Of a DNA stretch of 64,000 nt, positions 43,105-54,984 are shown one piece after another. Source of the DNA: Anaerococcus murdochii (GTDB taxonomy: Bacteria; Bacillota; Clostridia; Tissierellales; Peptoniphilaceae). The notes beneath the pieces were generated by a model, which was not told where the DNA came from, did no database searches, and worked only from the letters and a program-made list of their open reading frames with translations. Made by a program: the position numbers and the translations under genes. Numbering within the stretch: the stretch's first letter is position 1; each line of letters starts with the position of its first letter. The DNA is taken from assembly GCF_019957155.1 (NCBI RefSeq), contig NZ_JAIPME010000002.1, forward strand, positions 496,001-560,000. The letters are read 5' to 3'.

Positions 43105-43236
43105 TTTAGGCACGAAAAAACACCCATCGCCCTGATGGATGTGAAAAAACTCCATCAGCCAAGCTTTAGCACCTTACAAAAAGTAGGTTGCTGAAGGATC
43201 ACAGAGCTTGTCTCTCCCCTTCTCTTTATGGTAATC
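43105..43236 (-). promoter_or_regulatory. SAM-I (S-box) riboswitch with terminator
   Basis: The minus strand carries the S-box core in order: AGAGAAGGGGAG, GCTCTGTGATCC, CAGCAACC, a P3 hairpin CCTAC/GTAAGG, GGTGCTAA, a small P4 (AGC/GCT) and GATGG pairing with CCAT before the core. After the aptamer CTGATGG can pair either with the aptamer side or with CCATCAG of the following terminator, which ends in TTTTTT (43113-43108). At high SAM it should terminate and switch the SAM hydrolase/ECF operon off. A -10 TATAAT lies at 43244-43239. Confidence 0.9.
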
Positions 43237-47775: not shown

Positions 47776-48186
47776 GTATTTTAAAATCTCAAGACTCCGT
47801 CAAAAAAATTGCACTGACGCACGTTTACAAGTAAATTTCAGTAGCTACTGTGAGAAAATCTTAATATCAATTAAAAGTCAGACTAGATTGCAATTTTTAG
47901 GAGGCTTGTGATTTTAAAACTTCAAAAGAAAATCAACAATAAACGAAGAATCAGACCATACCAAAAAAAGCTTGCCGAAAAGGCAAGTTTCTGCTTTCGC
48001 CCTCCGCTTAAGGAGCAGTCAGGGGTGAAGCGTAAGGGGGTCTTAGGGGGAACCAGTGAGGGGGCCTCTGCCGCCCCCTTGGGTTCCCCCTATGAACGAA
48101 GATTCAACTGTAAATTATATAACATTTATAAGATTAAATTTAATTTAAAATTAAAGCACAAATAATTTATCTTGGATAAAAAAACC
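47776..48186 (+). repeat. Composite ~400-bp repeat, copy A
   Basis: Same parts, order and length as 54142-54546. It holds an RNA-like segment (47790-47908), a GCTTGCC/GGCAAG hairpin, a GC-rich palindromic tract (GGGGGAACC … GGTTCCCCC), an AT-rich stretch and a terminal TTATCTTGGATAA. It fills most of the 0.9-kb gap between oppA and clpC. The 5' part of the gap (47320-47775) has poly-C (47475-47482), two ATTATTCGCA repeats and D2. Confidence 0.75.
47790..47908 (+). ncRNA. Conserved RNA-like element, copy A
   Basis: It starts CAAGACTCC and ends GGAGGCTTG, which pair with one mismatch. Inside are AAATTGCA/TGCAATTT and CTGAC/GTCAG with the bulge ACTAGAT. Loop bases differ from copy B while the stems are kept. 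No Rfam family I know fits. The 3' AGGAGG lies inside the closing stem. Confidence 0.45.
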
Positions 48187-48206
48187 AGGTTGATTTCTCA
48201 ACCCAG
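48177..48206 (-). terminator. clpC operon terminator
   Basis: CTGGGTTGA-GAAA-TCAACCTGG on the minus strand followed by TTTTTTT; its far side overlaps the end of repeat copy A. Confidence 0.8.
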
Positions 48207-48217
48207 TTTAATCTGTA

Positions 48218-50659
48218 TTATGCTTTTGCTTCTTGCCTAGCTTCTTTAGAAGCTTTCTTAGATTTAGTAATGTTTCTAAAACACAACCTATCGTTTTGAA
48301 CATAAATCCTAATAGTCATGTCCTTATCAAGCTTGTTATCAAGAATATCTTCAGCAAGCCTATCGTCTATCATCTTTGTGATGTGGCGTTCTAGTGGTCT
48401 TGCTCCATATTCGGAGTTGAAGCCTTCCTTGGCAAGGAGGTTTACAACCCTCTCGTCAAAGGCTATTTCTATGCCGATTTCATTAAGTCTAGCCCTAGTT
48501 TTTTCAAGCATTAAGCCAGTTATTTCCCTGATATTAGCTTGGCTTAGGGAATTGAACATGATTGTTCCATCTAGCCTGTTTAAAAATTCTGGCGCAAAGG
48601 AATCCTTGATGGCCTTTGTTATTATTTCCTTGTTGCGTTCGTTGTCGGCCTCTTGCTTATCTTCTGCCAGGTCAAAACCGATTGATGTGGCCTTAGCAAG
48701 GCTTGATACACCAACATTTGAGGTCATAATTATTATTGTGTTTTTAAAGTCAATGGTCCTACCCTGACCATCTGTGAGCCTTCCGTCATCTAGGATTTGA
48801 AGAAGGAGGTTAAAGACGTCTGGGTGGGCCTTTTCGATTTCGTCAAAGAGGATTACGGAATATGGATTGGTCCTAACTGCCTCGGTGAGTTGGCCACCTT
48901 CTTCGTAGCCAACATAGCCTGGAGGAGATCCCACCAAACGGCTTACGGCAAATTTTTCCATATATTCACTCATATCCATCCTAACTAGCCTGTCTTCTGA
49001 GCCAAAAAGGGCCCCTGCTAAACTTTTTGCAAGGTAAGTCTTACCCACACCTGTAGGTCCCACAAAGATGAAAGAACCAATTGGTTTTTTAGGATCTTTA
49101 AGTCCTACCCTTGCCCTTTTGATGGCACGGGCAACACTTGCTATTGCCTCATCTTGGCCGATAACTGTGCCCGCCAAATTTTTATCAAGGCTAGCATACT
49201 TGGCTTTTTCGTCTTCTGTGAGCCTTTCAACTGGAACTTTGGACCAAGAAGCGACAATATTTGCTATATCATCGTAGGAAATAGCTAGCTTGTAGGCCGC
49301 TTTTTCCTCTTCCTTTTCCTCTTCCAGGTCAAACTTCTTTTGATTTATTATATCGCGGAGCTTGGCGGCCTTTTCGAAATCTTGGTCAAGAACTGCCTGG
49401 TCCTTTTCCGCCTTCAATTTCTCCAGTATATCTTCATTGGTATCTGTGTTTTCTTCCTCATCGTCAAAGGCCAAAATCCTTAGCTTTGAGGCCGCCTCGT
49501 CTATTAGGTCTATGGCCTTATCTGGCAAGAATCTATCTGTAATATACCTATCAGATAGGTCAACAGCCGCATTTATGGCCTCGTCTGTGATTTCTACCTT
49601 GTGGTGGTCTTCGTACATAGGCTTTAGGCCCCTAATGATTTTTTTAGAATCCTCAAGGCTTGGCTCGTCGACTTGGACTTCCTGCATACGTCGAGCAAGG
49701 GCCGAGTCCTTTTCCACGTGTTTCCTGTATTCATCAATGGTTGTAGCCCCTATTACCTGAAGATCTCCCTTAGCCAAAATTGGCTTTAGGATATTGGCCG
49801 CATCCATTGATCCTTCGGCAGCACCAGCACCTAGAACCATGTGAAACTCATCTATAAATAAAATCAAATCGTCACGATTAGCGGCTTCTTCGAATAATTT
49901 TTTTAGCCTATCTTCAAAATCGCCCCTGTACTTGGTCCCTGCAATCATTGAAGCAAGGTCCAGGCTTAAAATAGTTTTGTCCTTCATAATGCCAGGGAGA
50001 TTCCCATTTACAAGTTCATATGCAAGACCTTCTGCGATGGCAGTCTTGCCCACGCCTGGTTCCCCGATTAGGATTGGGTTATTTTTGGTCCTTCTCATTA
50101 GGATTTGGATTATCCTCTTGATTTCCTCATCCCTACCTATTACCGGGTCAATCTTTCCGGCCTTGGCCATGTCATTTAGGTTTGTGCAGAAATTTGTGAT
50201 ATTTTCACTGAATTTAGAAGGTGCCTTACCTTCTGATTTTTCTGCCCTAACCATGCTTAGGAGTTGCTTTTTGATTGTTTCCTTGTCCACTCCTGAGAGT
50301 AAAAACATGATATTTGTGAAGGAATCTTCATCGTTTATAATTGCCAAAAGGACGTCTTCTTCACTTGTGGCAAGGGCACGTCTGTTATTGGCGTAAAATC
50401 TCGCAGTTTCTAAAATTTTCCTTACTTTTTTGCTATATTCAGTCGCAGGCCTTACAGCTGTGCCCCTGCCAATATTGTTAATGACAATGGACCTTAAAAG
50501 CTCGTAATTAGCACCTGCCGCCTCTAGGGCCTTAGTCGCCCCTGACCCTGTTTTCATGAGGGCAAGGAGGAGGTGTTCAGTCCCTATATAGTCGTGGTTT
50601 AGACTATAGGACTCACGCCTGGCCTGTTGGGTTAGTCTGTTTAATCTATTATTTTCCAT
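48218..50659 (-). CDS. clpC: ATP-dependent Clp protease ATPase subunit ClpC
   Basis: 813 residues. Two N-terminal Clp_N repeats (LNHDYIGTEHLLLALMK, ALATSEEDVLLAII); D1 with Walker A GEPGVGKT and Walker B LILFIDEFH; a short middle domain with a UVR motif (QDFEKAAKLRDIINQKK, ~440-455); D2 with GPTGVGKT, VILFDEIEKAH, TSN sensor 1 and RLDG Arg finger. The IGF loop (TSIGFDL) that docks ClpP is present. It unfolds proteins into ClpP and is fully intact, unlike the second Clp gene at 61.5 kb. Last gene of the ctsR operon, overlapping mcsB by 11 bp. Confidence 0.95.
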   Translation of the reverse strand: MENNRLNRLTQQARRESYSLNHDYIGTEHLLLALMKTGSGATKALEAAGANYELLRSIVINNIGRGTAVRPATEYSKKVRKILETARFYANNRRALATSEEDVLLAIINDEDSFTNIMFLLSGVDKETIKKQLLSMVRAEKSEGKAPSKFSENITNFCTNLNDMAKAGKIDPVIGRDEEIKRIIQILMRRTKNNPILIGEPGVGKTAIAEGLAYELVNGNLPGIMKDKTILSLDLASMIAGTKYRGDFEDRLKKLFEEAANRDDLILFIDEFHMVLGAGAAEGSMDAANILKPILAKGDLQVIGATTIDEYRKHVEKDSALARRMQEVQVDEPSLEDSKKIIRGLKPMYEDHHKVEITDEAINAAVDLSDRYITDRFLPDKAIDLIDEAASKLRILAFDDEEENTDTNEDILEKLKAEKDQAVLDQDFEKAAKLRDIINQKKFDLEEEKEEEKAAYKLAISYDDIANIVASWSKVPVERLTEDEKAKYASLDKNLAGTVIGQDEAIASVARAIKRARVGLKDPKKPIGSFIFVGPTGVGKTYLAKSLAGALFGSEDRLVRMDMSEYMEKFAVSRLVGSPPGYVGYEEGGQLTEAVRTNPYSVILFDEIEKAHPDVFNLLLQILDDGRLTDGQGRTIDFKNTIIIMTSNVGVSSLAKATSIGFDLAEDKQEADNERNKEIITKAIKDSFAPEFLNRLDGTIMFNSLSQANIREITGLMLEKTRARLNEIGIEIAFDERVVNLLAKEGFNSEYGARPLERHITKMIDDRLAEDILDNKLDKDMTIRIYVQNDRLCFRNITKSKKASKEARQEAKA

Positions 50660-51626
50660 GGCTTTCCCCCATTTCTTTCATCAAATATTCGTACCTTCCG
50701 GCATCGAAATTTTCCTTATACTTGTGAGAAGAAAGATTTTTGATCATCTTATTTAATTCATCTTCTGATAATTTTATATTAAAGCCCAAAAGTTGGTATT
50801 TTTTAAGCCTATAAAGGCCCTTCATCATCTTATCAATGCTCTTAACAAGTCCTGTTTCAAGGCTTTTTTCGATTAAATCAATCTCTTCTTCTACTTCTCT
50901 ATCGTCTATATTATTTAAAATCCTATAATCTCTCCTAAACCTTCTCTCGTTTTTGACCAGAGTTTCTAGGTCTTTTTCTATCTTTTTGAGGTAGGATTCA
51001 GGCTTTTCCCTGTAATTTCCATAATTTTTTAGCAAATATAGGTCATCTGCATAAGACTTTAAGCCTTGGGGAATAAATTTCTGTGGGTATAGGCCTGCGT
51101 AAACCATAGCCTGCTCAAAGCCTGCGTAGGTTTTTGGATTATCAATCAAACCAAAAAGGAATAATTTCATCCAAATTTCGAGGCCTGTTCCCGCATTTCT
51201 CGCCCCACTTGTCAGATAACCGTATTCGCTAGAAAAGGCAAAATCAAAATGGCTATCGAGAACTTTTTCAATTTCGACTGCCTTTTTGTAAGCCCCAGTT
51301 AAATCCAAATCAAAGTTTGAAATATTTATGGAAATGTGGTCCCTATCGTTGATTACAAGGGTAGTATCCCCCTCAAAAATAAGGCCAACCTGGGCAAGTT
51401 TATTAGTCACATCAGGACTTAGGACCATTTCTGAAATGAGTCTATCAATGGTTTCGTCGTCCAAATCAGTAAGTAAAACAAGCCTATCACCAAAAACGCT
51501 CCTTACCATATCCATTATTACAAGGGACTCGTCATAGGTCATGGTTGTTGGAAAATCATAGCCCTTGATGTTTCTCCTTAAAGATAGGTTGGTAGAGATT
51601 AGGATGTCTTTTGCAAAATCTCTCAA
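50649..51626 (-). CDS. mcsB: McsB-like guanido kinase, catalytic residues lost
   Basis: 325 residues, in the mcsB position. The fold is recognisable: VLSPDVTNKLAQVGLIF, NDRDHISINI and FAFSSEYGYLTSGARNAGTG. Active-site residues are gone. The SSRIRLARN ATP site reads STNLSLRRN (Arg to Asn13, Arg to Ser15). The CPTN loop reads GARN (Cys to Gly141), and the Arg after GTGL is Glu150. The RGLYGE loop reads AGLYPQ. It is therefore unlikely to phosphorylate arginine. It may still act as an adaptor with McsA and ClpC or CtsR. Overlaps mcsA by 4 bp. Confidence 0.8.
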   Translation of the reverse strand: MRDFAKDILISTNLSLRRNIKGYDFPTTMTYDESLVIMDMVRSVFGDRLVLLTDLDDETIDRLISEMVLSPDVTNKLAQVGLIFEGDTTLVINDRDHISINISNFDLDLTGAYKKAVEIEKVLDSHFDFAFSSEYGYLTSGARNAGTGLEIWMKLFLFGLIDNPKTYAGFEQAMVYAGLYPQKFIPQGLKSYADDLYLLKNYGNYREKPESYLKKIEKDLETLVKNERRFRRDYRILNNIDDREVEEEIDLIEKSLETGLVKSIDKMMKGLYRLKKYQLLGFNIKLSEDELNKMIKNLSSHKYKENFDAGRYEYLMKEMGESHGK

Positions 51627-52207
51627 TTTTTCACCTGCATATTTAATTTATCAATTTTTTCCTTAAGATCGGCTGCCAGCTCATAATCCTCTGTTTGAAC
51701 AGATTCGTTGAGCCTCTTTGATAATTCCTTGATCTCATCAGCCACTTCTTTAAACTTTCTTTCTGCTCTTGGGTAGGCACCCTTGTAGTCGCTAAAATTG
51801 TTGTAGGTCTTTAAAACCTTGTCTGTAAGGGCCTTGTCTAGGTTATAGCAATGGGCACAACCAAAGACCCCATTTCTAATATTTGACTCCAAATTCCCAC
51901 AATATGGGCAGGATTTTTCATCTACATTTAGGATATAGGACAATTCTTTGTTGGCCTGGTTGTATTTATATTCATAAAACCCATCTATAACTTCCTCAAG
52001 ACTTGGGATAAACTTTTGCAAAAGTCCTTCCAAATCCTTTGGATTGAAAGAAATATTTTCCCCGCTAATTTTTGTCGGATCAAAATTTTCTGGAGCATTT
52101 GAATATTTTTTCATACAATCTGAGCAAAGGTGGATATTGTGGCTATTGCCATTAAAAATCACCTTTAGGCTCACACTGGCATCCTTGCCGCATTTATCAC
52201 ATTTCAT
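51623..52207 (-). CDS. mcsA: McsA-like zinc-finger modulator
   Basis: 194 residues. Two zinc-binding CxxC pairs are at the N-terminus (CDKCGKDAS and LCSDCMKKY) and another two in the middle (CPYCGN, GCAHCYN). A C-terminal UVR motif (ETVQTEDYELAADLKEKIDKL-like) ends the protein. McsA activates McsB and binds metal. It begins 2 bp after ctsR, with AAGGAG in the ctsR end. Confidence 0.9.
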   Translation of the reverse strand: MKCDKCGKDASVSLKVIFNGNSHNIHLCSDCMKKYSNAPENFDPTKISGENISFNPKDLEGLLQKFIPSLEEVIDGFYEYKYNQANKELSYILNVDEKSCPYCGNLESNIRNGVFGCAHCYNLDKALTDKVLKTYNNFSDYKGAYPRAERKFKEVADEIKELSKRLNESVQTEDYELAADLKEKIDKLNMQVKN

Positions 52208-52208
52208 A

Positions 52209-52670
52209 TTAACTCCTTGCCAAAATACTCAAAAGAAGGCTTCTGACAATCGAGGCCCTGACTGTGTTTCGGCCCTTGGCCTCAATATCTGCCAGGGTCT
52301 TATCGCTTGTGGCATACCTTGCCATCAGGTACTCGTTTTTGTCAAAATATTCCCTCTCGTAAAGGTCTCTAAAAAGATTATTGGCGTTTGATTCGCTCAT
52401 TTCCTTGGCCAAATTCCTAAGTAAATAGGAAATATAGTCGTCTTCTTCGACAATGCTTATTATCTTTATAAAGCCATTGCCCCCACGCTTACTCTCGATT
52501 AGGTAGCCGTTATAAGGTGTAAACCTGGTTGAAAGCACGTAATTTATCTGACTTGGCGAACAATCAAACTGACTCGCCAGCTCATTTCTCCCAATTTCCA
52601 AAGCGCCGTCCACGCTATCTTCGAGCATGAGCTTTAGAAATCTTTCTATTTGATTAGTTAAACCTGCCAT
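52209..52670 (-). CDS. ctsR: Heat-shock repressor CtsR
   Basis: 153 residues. The winged helix-turn-helix is in IGRNELASQFDCSPSQINYVLSTRFTPYNGYLIESKRGGNGFIKI; the beta-wing tetraglycine-type loop (RGGNG) that senses temperature is kept. The C-terminal helical domain follows. It represses the ctsR-mcsA-mcsB-clpC operon and other stress genes through GGTCAAA repeats, one of which lies upstream. Confidence 0.93.
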   Translation of the reverse strand: MAGLTNQIERFLKLMLEDSVDGALEIGRNELASQFDCSPSQINYVLSTRFTPYNGYLIESKRGGNGFIKIISIVEEDDYISYLLRNLAKEMSESNANNLFRDLYEREYFDKNEYLMARYATSDKTLADIEAKGRNTVRASIVRSLLLSILARS

Positions 52671-52706
52671 AATCTCCTGTCTTTCTCTATTTATAGGTCA
52701 AAGCTT

Positions 52707-52723
52707 ACTGACTATCTCTGACC
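52707..52723 (-). promoter_or_regulatory. CtsR operator upstream of ctsR
   Basis: GGTCAGAGATAGTCAGT on the minus strand matches GGTCAAANANRGTCAAA with three mismatches. An opposite GGTCAAA lies at 52696-52702. A promoter (TTGTAA-16-TATAAT, 52790-52763) lies upstream. Confidence 0.7.
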
Positions 52724-52809
52724 ATTGCCTGTAAAATAAAGGAAGCCTCGCTTCCTAAATGAATTATACTAGATTGCTAGGAATTTACAATGTAAATTTC
52801 TTTTAAAAA

Positions 52810-52845
52810 CAAAAGCACCCCAGAAATCGGCCAGGGCACTTAATT
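52810..52845 (-). terminator. Terminator of the YugP-like gene
   Basis: GTGCCC/GGGTGC hairpin with several G-T pairs and TTTTGTTTTT on the minus strand. Confidence 0.55.
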
Positions 52846-52863
52846 TCCTTTGATAATTCCTTC

Positions 52864-53565
52864 TTAGTCCCTACGGTTCCTGTCCCCAAATAAGAGGAAA
52901 AGTCTCAATAATTGAAGGGCTGTCGCAAGGGTTGCTGCCACATAGGTGAGGGCAGCTGATCTTAGCATATCCTTTGCTCCTGGGATTTCACTTTCATCAA
53001 GGATATGGGTCCTTTCAAGGGCTACTATAGCACGCCTTGACGCATCAAACTCCACAGGTAGGGTTATGATTTGGAATAAAAGTGTAAGGGAAAATAGGGC
53101 CAAGCCTATGGTTATTAGCTTTTGTTGGGATAAAAATACTCCTGCCAAAAGAATTGGAAAAGATAATCTCGATCCAAAATTAACCGCAGGCACCATATAG
53201 GATTTGACCTTAAGAGGTATATAGCCTTCCTTAAACTGGATAACGTGGCCAATTTCGTGGAGAGCCACAGCCAAAGATGCTATTGACGAATCATGGAAGG
53301 ATGTGTCAGATAAGGCGACCTCCTTGGTCATAGGATTGAAATAATCTGACAAGGACCCAGGAATTCTCTTAATAGAAATATCCCTGTAATTATTGTAATT
53401 AAGGACCATCTGGGCCGCTTCCGCCCCAGTCATCCCGCGTTTTGACCTAATTTTACTATACTTATTAAATTTTGAAGTGATATTAGCCTGGGCCAGCATT
53501 GAAATCACAAGGCCAATCAATACTAAAAAGTAAGTTCTATCAAAATAAAATCCATATGGATACAT
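52864..53565 (-). CDS. yugP: Zinc metallopeptidase of the YugP family
   Basis: 233 residues from ATG 53565 (GAGG upstream by six; the frame also reaches a TTG eight codons earlier). Three to four membrane spans, with the zinc-binding LAVALHEIGHVIQF between TM1 and TM2 and the third ligand region in PVEFDASRRAIVAL. It is a membrane-embedded metalloprotease likely acting in protein quality control. Its promoter is covered by a near-perfect CtsR box, so it belongs to the heat-shock regulon. Confidence 0.9.
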   Translation of the reverse strand: MYPYGFYFDRTYFLVLIGLVISMLAQANITSKFNKYSKIRSKRGMTGAEAAQMVLNYNNYRDISIKRIPGSLSDYFNPMTKEVALSDTSFHDSSIASLAVALHEIGHVIQFKEGYIPLKVKSYMVPAVNFGSRLSFPILLAGVFLSQQKLITIGLALFSLTLLFQIITLPVEFDASRRAIVALERTHILDESEIPGAKDMLRSAALTYVAATLATALQLLRLFLLFGDRNRRD

Positions 53566-53607
53566 AATATTCCTCGTTTCTATTTTCAAAAAATTGGTAT
53601 TAAAGCT

Positions 53608-53646
53608 ATTATATTCAAATTTTCTTAAAAGTCAAAGAAGGTCAAA
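53608..53646 (-). promoter_or_regulatory. YugP promoter overlapped by a CtsR box
   Basis: -35 TTGACT (53635-53630), 16 bp, -10 TATAAT (53613-53608). AGTCAAAGAAGGTCAAA on the plus strand at 53630-53646 matches the CtsR consensus at all but one position and covers the -35. Confidence 0.8.
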
Positions 53647-53932
53647 GTTCTTTTCACTAGTGAGTCTATTTATCCGAGATAAAATATCTTTTTTTGTTAA
53701 TCCGAGATTAACCGTATCACAATAATAATCTAGGTCATTTACATTACCCCTCCGTAAAAAGGGGAGGCCCAAGGGACCTTCCGCAGGGTCCCTCACTCGC
53801 CTCCCCTTAAACCCCTCTCGGCTACACCCCCGAGCGGCTCCTTATGCGGAGGGCGAAATCAGAAGCTTGCCTTATCGGCAAGCTTTTTTTAGTAGAGAGA
53901 ACGTCCTTGTTTTAGTTGGTGTATTTACCCAG

Positions 53933-54022
53933 AGATTTCTAATATTCAAGCCCCTAAAAACTGATAACTCGGCTTCGCCTCAAACAATCAGTTTTCTTAA
54001 CGGGGCTTTCTATTAGAAATCT
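53933..54022. other. 90-nt nested stem-loop
   Basis: Three perfect stems one inside another: AGATTTCTAATA/TATTAGAAATCT, GCCCC/GGGGC, AAAACTGAT/ATCAGTTTT, around a GGC-TTC-GCC tip. Confidence 0.65.
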
Positions 54023-54141
54023 TTGCCCGATAAAGAAGATATTTTATCTCGAAGTTCTAGAACTTGCGAGGCTCGTTTGGCTTCCGCCAAACATTGCTAG
54101 ATGACTTTTACTTAGACGAAGAGTTTAAAATTTAAGACCAA

Positions 54142-54546
54142 GTATTTTAAGATCCCAAGCATCCGTTAAGAAAATTGCACTGACAGCTCTTTACAATAAA
54201 GAATACAATAACTACTGTGAACTGATTTTCAAATGTAATACACAAGTCAGACTAGATTGCAATTTTTAGGAGGCTTGGAATTTTAAAAGAGTTAGGATAT
54301 TAATATACTAAAACAAGGGCTCCTACATATCAACAAGTTTGCCGATAGGCAAACACAATATCCCCCGTGAGGGGTCGCCCGGAGGGGGTAACGGAAGGGG
54401 TTTTAAAGGGGACCCGATGGGGGAACGTGCGAAACGTTCCCCTGGGGTCCCCTTTTTACGGAGAGGTCATGTAAATGACCTAGATTATTTAAATGATACA
54501 GTTAATCTCGGATTAACGAAAAAAAAGATAATTTATCTCGGATAAA
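54142..54546 (+). repeat. Composite ~400-bp repeat, copy B
   Basis: Collinear with 47776-48186; forms the right half of the inverted-repeat element. The GC block here is GTTTGCC/GGCAAAC, CCCCCGTGAGGGG and GGGGAACG/CGTTCCCC. Confidence 0.75.
54156..54277 (+). ncRNA. Conserved RNA-like element, copy B
   Basis: CAAGCATCC…GGAGGCTTG closing stem (one mismatch at a different place from copy A), AAATTGCA/TGCAATTT, CTGAC/GTCAG, and the invariant bulge and tail ACTAGATTGCAATTTTTAGG. Confidence 0.45.
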
Positions 54547-54552
54547 AAAATC

Positions 54553-54984
54553 TTATTTTATTTGCAAAACCATCTTCACATGTTCAATTCCATCGAGCAA
54601 AAAGACCTCTGAGTCTTCCACGAAGCCCACCTTTTCATAAAGTTTTTTGGCGTAGGTTTGGGCTTCTATGATAATTTTTCTGGTCTGGTATTTTTCCTTT
54701 GCTGCCTTTATAGCTTCTTTTAGGATAAGGGTGGCGTGGCCCTTTCTTCTTTCTTTTGCGATGACTCTTCCTAGGTGAACTTGTCCTTCTTCTTCGTAGA
54801 CCCTGGCGTAAGCTAAGATTTGACCTTGGTTTTCCAAATAAATATGGATAGCATCATAATCTTTTCCGTCTATTTCCGGGTAGGGACAGGCTTGTTCTAC
54901 CACAAAAACATCGACCCTGAGTCTTAAGATCTCATAGAGTTCACGCTTTGTTAAGTCATCAAAAGTTTTAATTATACTCTGCAT
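54553..54984 (-). CDS. GNAT acetyltransferase, ElaA-like
   Basis: 143 residues from ATG 54984 (GGGG seven bases upstream; another ATG four codons earlier is less supported). The N-terminus LYEILRLRVDVFVVEQACPY is the ElaA signature; HLGRVIAKERRKGHATLILKEAI contains the acetyl-CoA motif A in R-x-x-G-H/A form. The acceptor is not known. The gene stands alone between the repeat element and the iron-box region. Confidence 0.85.
   Translation of the reverse strand: MQSIIKTFDDLTKRELYEILRLRVDVFVVEQACPYPEIDGKDYDAIHIYLENQGQILAYARVYEEEGQVHLGRVIAKERRKGHATLILKEAIKAAKEKYQTRKIIIEAQTYAKKLYEKVGFVEDSEVFLLDGIEHVKMVLQIK

Follow-up and report, generated by a model that had tools for sequence, protein, structure and literature searches.

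The question raised by this locus is what kind of element is repeated in it. Within 64,000 nucleotides of Anaerococcus murdochii (NCBI RefSeq assembly GCF_019957155.1, contig NZ_JAIPME010000002.1, positions 496,001 to 560,000; here called the window), a preliminary description had noted two copies of a composite repeat of ~400 bp, each opening with a self-closing RNA element to which no known class could be matched. Both copies were found at their places by direct reading of the window, but the repeat proved longer and more numerous than described. The complete element is 883 nt (window 53669-54551), with similarity running far past 120 or 400 nt when 21 copies are aligned, and 10 hairpins of the reported type occur in the same genome (G000). 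The best explanation, to which about an even chance is given, is a dispersed hairpin resembling the repetitive extragenic palindromic (REP) sequences and their paired form, the REPINs, that is read as a single strand, has been assembled into composite elements and is rearranged by recombination.

Fold and covariation of the reported hairpin

As plus-strand RNA the reported hairpin folds on itself as proposed, with z-scores of -3.55 for copy 2 and -3.47 for copy 1 and none of 200 dinucleotide shuffles as good; with DNA parameters copy 2 gave a z-score of -3.25, and 1 of 200 shuffles was as good. The minus strands fold too, and the strand can therefore not be chosen from folding alone. The closing stem exists and is longer than had been noted, consisting of TTTTAAAATCCCAAG/CTTGGGATTTTAAAA, TCC/GGA, AAAATTGCA/TGCAATTTT and CTGAC/GTCAG. 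What had been taken for a conserved tail, ACTAGATTGCAATTTTTAGG, is the 3' strand of this stem, and its Shine-Dalgarno-like AGGAGG is not conserved (TAGGC, TAGGGG in G011). The apex, CTGAC..GTCAGAC[TG]AGAT, defines what is called here the A-type.

A covariance-model search of 31 genomes of the genus returned full-length A-type matches only in G000 (10 copies) and in three other Anaerococcus genomes, G019 (9), G002 (8) and G011 (23), the remaining matches being short or weak. With copy 1 as a 144-nt query there were 10 matches in the own genome, and matches in 6 of 61 genomes, all of the same genus. The further copies covary. In 23 A-type copies 8 pairs showed changes on both sides, compared with 1.8 after shuffling (0/500 shuffles as high) and 1-5 in slid versions of the structure, and a structure-fitted alignment of 44 copies held 97 double-changed cells vs 36 shuffled (0/500). 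Counts of double-change pairs (9 vs 7.0; 12/500) and of pair types (26 vs 24.2; 104/500) in the same 44 copies were hardly above the shuffles. RNAalifold recovered 12 pairs from the 44 copies, namely the P2 helix and three P1 pairs, with the outer P1 and CTGAC/GTCAG absent; from 21 close copies it recovered 32 pairs, whose covariation energy was small (-0.1). Within the A-type stem, P2 and the inner P1 are thus firm, and the remainder is backed mainly by close copies.

No Rfam family scored above its gathering threshold in the window element or in 18 loci, and a relaxed search of window 53600-54600 at E up to 5 gave sub-threshold matches only. No description was found when the sequence strings and topics were sought in the literature, most subscription papers and all preprints lying outside the scope of that search. 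The view that this is an undescribed, conserved, self-closing element is borne out by the covariation and by the Rfam result. Elsewhere in the window a SAM (S-adenosylmethionine) riboswitch lies above the gathering score at 43121-43234 on the minus strand.

A family of kernel hairpins across phyla

The reported hairpin is accompanied within the element by a second one, the left kernel hairpin, in which the loops are constant while the stems change. The order of parts in this kernel is P1, C-GTNA-R, AAAA, P2, apex, P2', TTTT, TAG, P1'. A search pattern that fixed the loops and one A-tract, and left P1 and four variable P2 pairs free, matched at least 120 stretches in named genomes; the 80 matches listed came from Anaerococcus, Peptoniphilus, Clostridium, Lachnospiraceae, Campylobacterota and Bacteroidota, among others. 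Clostridium hairpins often stand alone; by eye they are embedded in a more extended conserved stem, which has another internal loop resembling theirs.

The main alignment comprised 59 cross-phylum hairpins, hand-picked from 77, none of them A-type. It contained 458 double-changed cells vs 167 shuffled (0/500), and its covariation score was 0.658 vs 0.178 shuffled (0/500), with slid structures reaching 0.11-0.15. Two measures were saturated and did not rise above the shuffles (double-change pairs 19 vs 18.3, further pair types 80 vs 76.6). The four variable P2 pairs were formed in 230 of 235 cells; pairing over the whole helix was 98.9%, a figure that includes the A-T pairs fixed by the search filter. 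Because the 59 had been selected by hand, all 136 collected hairpins were also tested: the first six P1 pairs were formed in 85.0% vs 46.9% shuffled, and in 85.9% vs 50.2% for the 77 hairpins outside the 59-row alignment.

Two covariance models were built, R1 from the 59 hairpins, with no A-type among them, and R2 from A-type hairpins including both window copies. R1 matched the left kernel (53940-54015, minus strand, 66.4 bits, E 3.2e-14) and both reported copies on the plus strand (54150-54283 and 47784-47914; E-values in Table 1), and up to E 1 it had no other match in the window. On these model matches the reported A-type element is assigned to the cross-phylum kernel family.

The distribution of the family is multi-copy and patchy. 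R1 matches occur in 24 of the 31 genus genomes, the own genome included; the other seven lack a hairpin at E 0.001, and one of these genomes is only 82% complete. Under stricter filters R1 found the hairpin in 20 of 398 genomes of a phylum sample, again including the own genome. All 21 genomes preselected for a pattern match contained R1 matches, with 1 to 47 copies each (47 in C. bowmanii, 45 in Geofilum rhodophaeum and 39 in Flavobacterium sufflavum). In viral contigs a loose 16-base pattern matched 41 stretches, which were taken as chance and not used; stricter patterns matched 5 and 1 stretches, and four of the five were one sequence without stem pairing, judged by eye to be chance.

Strand bias and divergent pairing

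On the strand reading CGTTAAG..TTTTTAG, P1 contained 50 G-U vs 21 A-C in all 59 rows (p 8e-4), 29 vs 4 in the 38 rows with a good P1 (p 1e-5) and 35 vs 10 in all 136 hairpins (p 2.5e-4), these p-values being rough since related sequences are not independent. Pair 26-72, with 41 G-U vs 0 A-C, was dropped as strand evidence, its U being fixed by the sequence filter; the counts for P1 are unaffected by this. The preliminary description spoke of RNA, and this is not established: the bias means that one strand matters, and such selection is compatible with RNA as well as with single-stranded DNA.

The hairpins also occur in pairs of a preferred orientation. Among the 150 genus matches listed, all 17 pairs less than 600 bp apart were divergent (minus then plus), and so were 7 of 7 such pairs in G011. 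In a set of 100 loci with E up to 0.5, 15 of 19 close pairs were divergent; without matches of E >0.001 the figure was 12 of 15, the other three being tandem.

The composite element in Anaerococcus

Copy 2 is the full composite palindrome of ~0.88 kb, and copy 1 consists of its right half only (Table 1). Its parts run from a left arm through the left kernel hairpin, a centre and the right kernel hairpin, which is the reported element, to inverted arm hairpins; the two kernel hairpins lie on opposite strands with their 5' ends facing. The left arm itself is made up of short ATCCGAGAT hairpins, a GGTCATTTACAT module, a long GC-rich hairpin and a GCTTGCC hairpin with a T-run. Terminal inverted repeats are present as arms of 146 nt each, 77% complementary (53684-53829 against 54384-54529), and arm hairpin sequences vary between copies and also inside one copy. 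The whole element folds as RNA with -393.6 kcal/mol (z -28.7, 20 shuffles). Long copies in G000, G002 and G019 are ~75-86% identical across most of their length, and with the whole unit as query the own genome returned 71 matches, which were grouped into about 23 locations of complete or partial elements. In several elements (L046, L048, L049 and L051) the right kernel carries an inverted form of the left apex in place of the A-type.

Table 1. Coordinates in the window of the element, its parts and the half-copy, with the basis for each
Feature	Position	Strand	Basis
Complete composite palindromic element, 883 bp	53669..54551		long copies in G000, G002, G019; RNA fold
Left arm: short TTTATCCGAGATAAA-type hairpins, GGTCATTTACAT module, long GC hairpin, GCTTGCC hairpin	53669..53900		inverted repeat; 21-copy alignment
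GCTTGCC/GGCAAGC hairpin, then seven T	53865..53883	+	direct reading; absent from terminator-like sites of scan
Left kernel hairpin, common type (TGTTTGAG..CGAGTT apex)	53932..54024	-	R1 match; fold z -8.1; family covariation; minus as putative functional strand
Right kernel hairpin, A-type (reported copy 2)	54142..54290	+	R2 149.7 bits (copy included in model); R1 E 5.6e-8; covariation
Right arm, inverted relative to left arm	54291..54551		inverted repeat; alignment; fold
A-type kernel hairpin, copy 1	47776..47921	+	R2 126.1 bits (copy included in model); R1 E 1.4e-7; fold z -3.47
Copy 1 right arm, left half of element missing	47922..48184		47959-48091 matches inverted left arm; end set by eye at ATCTTGGATAAAAAAA

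Other repeats keep company with the elements. A second repeat (GGAACGTAATC..CTCCTATTCGTCGCATCGC..TTACATAAGGTTTTTCATAAATTTC), whole or partial, abuts them on the left or right at L011, L012, L013, L015, L016, L018, L023 and L030, and a third (CCGTCCCGAC..GGGACC..) stands in place of, or after, half-elements at L013, L028, L052, L053 and L055. A further repeat, with CTTCTCCACT or TTTCTCCACT plus inverted CTCG/CGAG parts, is found inside or next to elements at L047 and L055, and its L047 example has a CTCGCTTCGCTC core in common with the kernel apex. A piece of 49 bp, 96% identical to the left part of the element, lies at the 3' end of a small open reading frame (ORF) in two genomes (G000:C1 19190-19238 and G003:C1 579760-579808); it is probably captured sequence and no pointer to function.

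Gene context

Context was scored with ORFs of at least 100 amino acids, which are not curated genes, and with hairpin-free spaces of at least 50 bp, the kinship of species being uncorrected. No hairpin of the pattern-derived loci lay inside such an ORF. For the 84 hairpins of these loci that had an ORF to either side, the gene next to the 3' end was sense in 19 and that next to the 5' end in 55. Convergent spaces made up 38 of 81 with a hairpin vs 41 of 300 without (p 1e-9), and divergent spaces 4 of 81 vs 77 of 300 (p 1e-5). This placement is that of REP-like repeats or terminators and not of leaders. Spaces between far-apart hairpin pairs (L113, L222 and others) showed no partner-like ORF by eye, and were not searched against families. 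Hairpins form clusters, with several per 20-30 kb, at G000:C2 883-1113 kb, G028:C1 2054-2076 kb and 79-98 kb of a Peptoniphilus obesi contig.

Shared, flipped and empty sites

Element sites are common to three Anaerococcus species. Orientation was scored at ten sites of the own genome for which G019 or G002 also has an element in the corresponding place: the interior was opposite to the flanks at five of them (920, 571, 1068, 889 and 883 kb) and the same way at the other five (739, 1056, 909, 550 and 653 kb). Left unscored were 544 kb, where there are half-elements, the rearranged 1041-1045 kb, 1113 kb, where G002 has the element, and 341 kb, whose flanks fall on separate contigs in G019 and lie 59 kb from each other in G002; the rest were not compared. 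At the rearranged place (G000:C2 1041-1045 kb, G019:C8 68-73 kb) the two species carry a two-gene segment in opposite orientations, bordered on each side by elements.

Identity between A-type copies follows site poorly. Four same-site pairs of G000 and G019 had identities of 0.85, 0.82, 0.90 and 0.62 vs a mean of 0.83 for 50 different-site pairs, and two copies at different sites in G000 are 0.99 identical. At the place of window copy 2, G019 has the outer arms only, around a hybrid hairpin that joins the left 5' half to the right 3' half, which is what an internal deletion would produce; at the place of copy 1, G002 has a right half of another type. Presence and absence at orthologous sites, as gain or loss, are also seen. 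G019 is without the element at the 1341 kb site, where the empty site was aligned, and at the 1113 kb site it has 140 bp between the flanks vs 622 in G000, as judged by flank distance.

Interpretation

Under the preferred reading, the kernel hairpin would be recognised as a single strand by a trans-acting factor, which would have copied it into gene-end and convergent intergenic spaces, much like REP/REPIN sequences. In Anaerococcus two opposite-strand kernels together with stacked arm hairpins make up the 0.9 kb palindromic unit. These units would now sit mostly at old sites and be rewritten in place, by inversion, apex-type exchange and internal deletion, with recombination between arms and between copies as the putative cause, that of the flips included. 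A strand-specific recogniser that reads shape would explain the constant loops, the free stems, the strand bias and the cross-phylum spread, and inverted arms in many copies would explain in-place inversion, exchange and deletion by ordinary recombination.

Several observations weigh against this. Canonical REPs have a GT[AG]G foot, and some subclasses contain diverged REPs, according to PMC6006769; the 59 aligned hairpins have no GT[AG]G foot, theirs being C-GTNA-R / TAG. The Y1_Tnp domain (PF01797) was rejected as a partner in this genus, being absent from 8 of the 24 hairpin-bearing genus genomes (G002, for one, has 20 hairpins and no PF01797) and present in 5 of the 7 without hairpins. Gene-end bias is absent from the ten A-type copies of the own genome, of which six lie in codirectional, two in convergent and two in divergent spaces. 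Among 120 loci the largest cluster of neighbouring proteins covered only 9, by inspection without a formal test, which suggests that there is no common neighbour gene. Plasmid and phage records gave no match at blastn sensitivity. No target-site duplication was recognised with one empty site aligned (1341 kb) and one judged by flank distance, and because most compared sites are common to the species, recent movement is not demonstrated. The strand bias falls to 12 G-U vs 4 A-C (p 0.077) in the 48 hairpins outside the alignment and the search-derived Anaerococcus loci. Finally, the divergent rule has exceptions, with three tandem pairs and one convergent pair among the 100 loci at E up to 0.5 and one tandem pair in Peptoniphilus obesi.

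The strongest competitor, itself unlikely, is a multi-copy family of structured RNAs, in which the kernel would be the 5' part of an outward transcript through the arm, so that each element would encode two divergent trans-acting RNAs. The strong covariation, the G-U bias on one strand and the 5' ends facing a shared centre would suit such RNAs, as would constant loops that by eye permit a tandem G-A motif; promoter-like sites in the element region number 6 vs 1.8 expected (standard deviation 1.2), and the right kernel hairpin contains three of the six, although none falls in the centre between the hairpins (54025-54141), and such scans carry little weight. The loss, halving or inversion of copies at shared sites, and the many hairpin spaces between convergent genes, also argue against it. 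The latter enrichment would be expected of a passive composite repeat of BOX or BIME (bacterial interspersed mosaic element) type acting as a two-way terminator or insulator at gene ends, for which the arm hairpin followed by a T-run (53865-53883) and 4 terminator-like sites vs 1.3 expected (standard deviation 1.2) can also be cited. That proposal is nevertheless doubtful: the excess of sites is modest, termination needs neither constant loops nor an apex kept across phyla, and the kernel P2 has only four variable pairs plus an A/T tract.

A binding site for a factor organising or replicating the chromosome appears more improbable still. The many own copies at 883-1113 kb of 2.18 Mb and the clusters in G028 and Peptoniphilus obesi point in that direction, but the GC skew of the examined stretches shows no clear replication terminus and seven genus genomes manage without a hairpin at E 0.001. 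Least credible of all is a riboswitch or other cis-regulatory leader. The element is conserved, covarying and intergenic, as a leader would be, yet no common neighbour was seen, Rfam gave no match, and the idea is contradicted by the gene context, with few sense genes on the 3' side, many convergent spaces and hardly any divergent ones; a cis-regulatory RNA is disfavoured because of this context.

For the REP/REPIN-like hairpin, a wider claim can be put forward tentatively. The kernels may form a cross-phylum class of strand-specific covarying hairpins, spread by a putative enzyme or trans-acting RNA system and present in Anaerococcus as self-inverting palindromes of 0.9 kb with exchangeable apex types. 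That loops stay constant while stems change freely in Clostridia, Campylobacterota and Bacteroidota implies recognition by shape on one strand, and the identity of the recogniser would tell a new route of repeat spread from a new RNA family. The two covariance models, with the shared and empty sites, make this question directly testable.

Comparison with known repeats

Miniature inverted-repeat transposable elements (MITEs) are non-coding, have terminal inverted arms and occur as dispersed copies, and all three features are found here. No target duplication was recognised at the two sites compared, nor was a cognate transposase found, and, unlike in MITEs, the most conserved part of the element is its kernel hairpins and not its ends. 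BOX and BIME repeats are modular, and they and ERIC (enterobacterial repetitive intergenic consensus) sequences are intergenic. The stem-loop families of 40 genomes in PMC2267715 include Clop-1, Clot-1 and Efa-1; with these families and with BOX, BIME and ERIC the element has in common that it is an intergenic repeated stem-loop, and it differs in constant loops with changing stems kept across phyla. It may nevertheless be identical with one of Clop-1, Clot-1 and Efa-1.

REP and REPIN sequences sit at gene 3' ends, and the kernel hairpins likewise are multi-copy, intergenic and mostly at gene 3' ends. The REP/REPIN sequences that accompany TnpA_REP (the REP-associated tyrosine transposase, RAYT) are, according to PMC6006769, multi-copy intergenic imperfect palindromes with inverted pairs, and to these the kernel hairpins are alike; inverted pairs occur here too, while many hairpins are single, above all in Clostridium. 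The Anaerococcus units differ from them in being much larger composites, in which the 3' ends of the hairpins point outwards.

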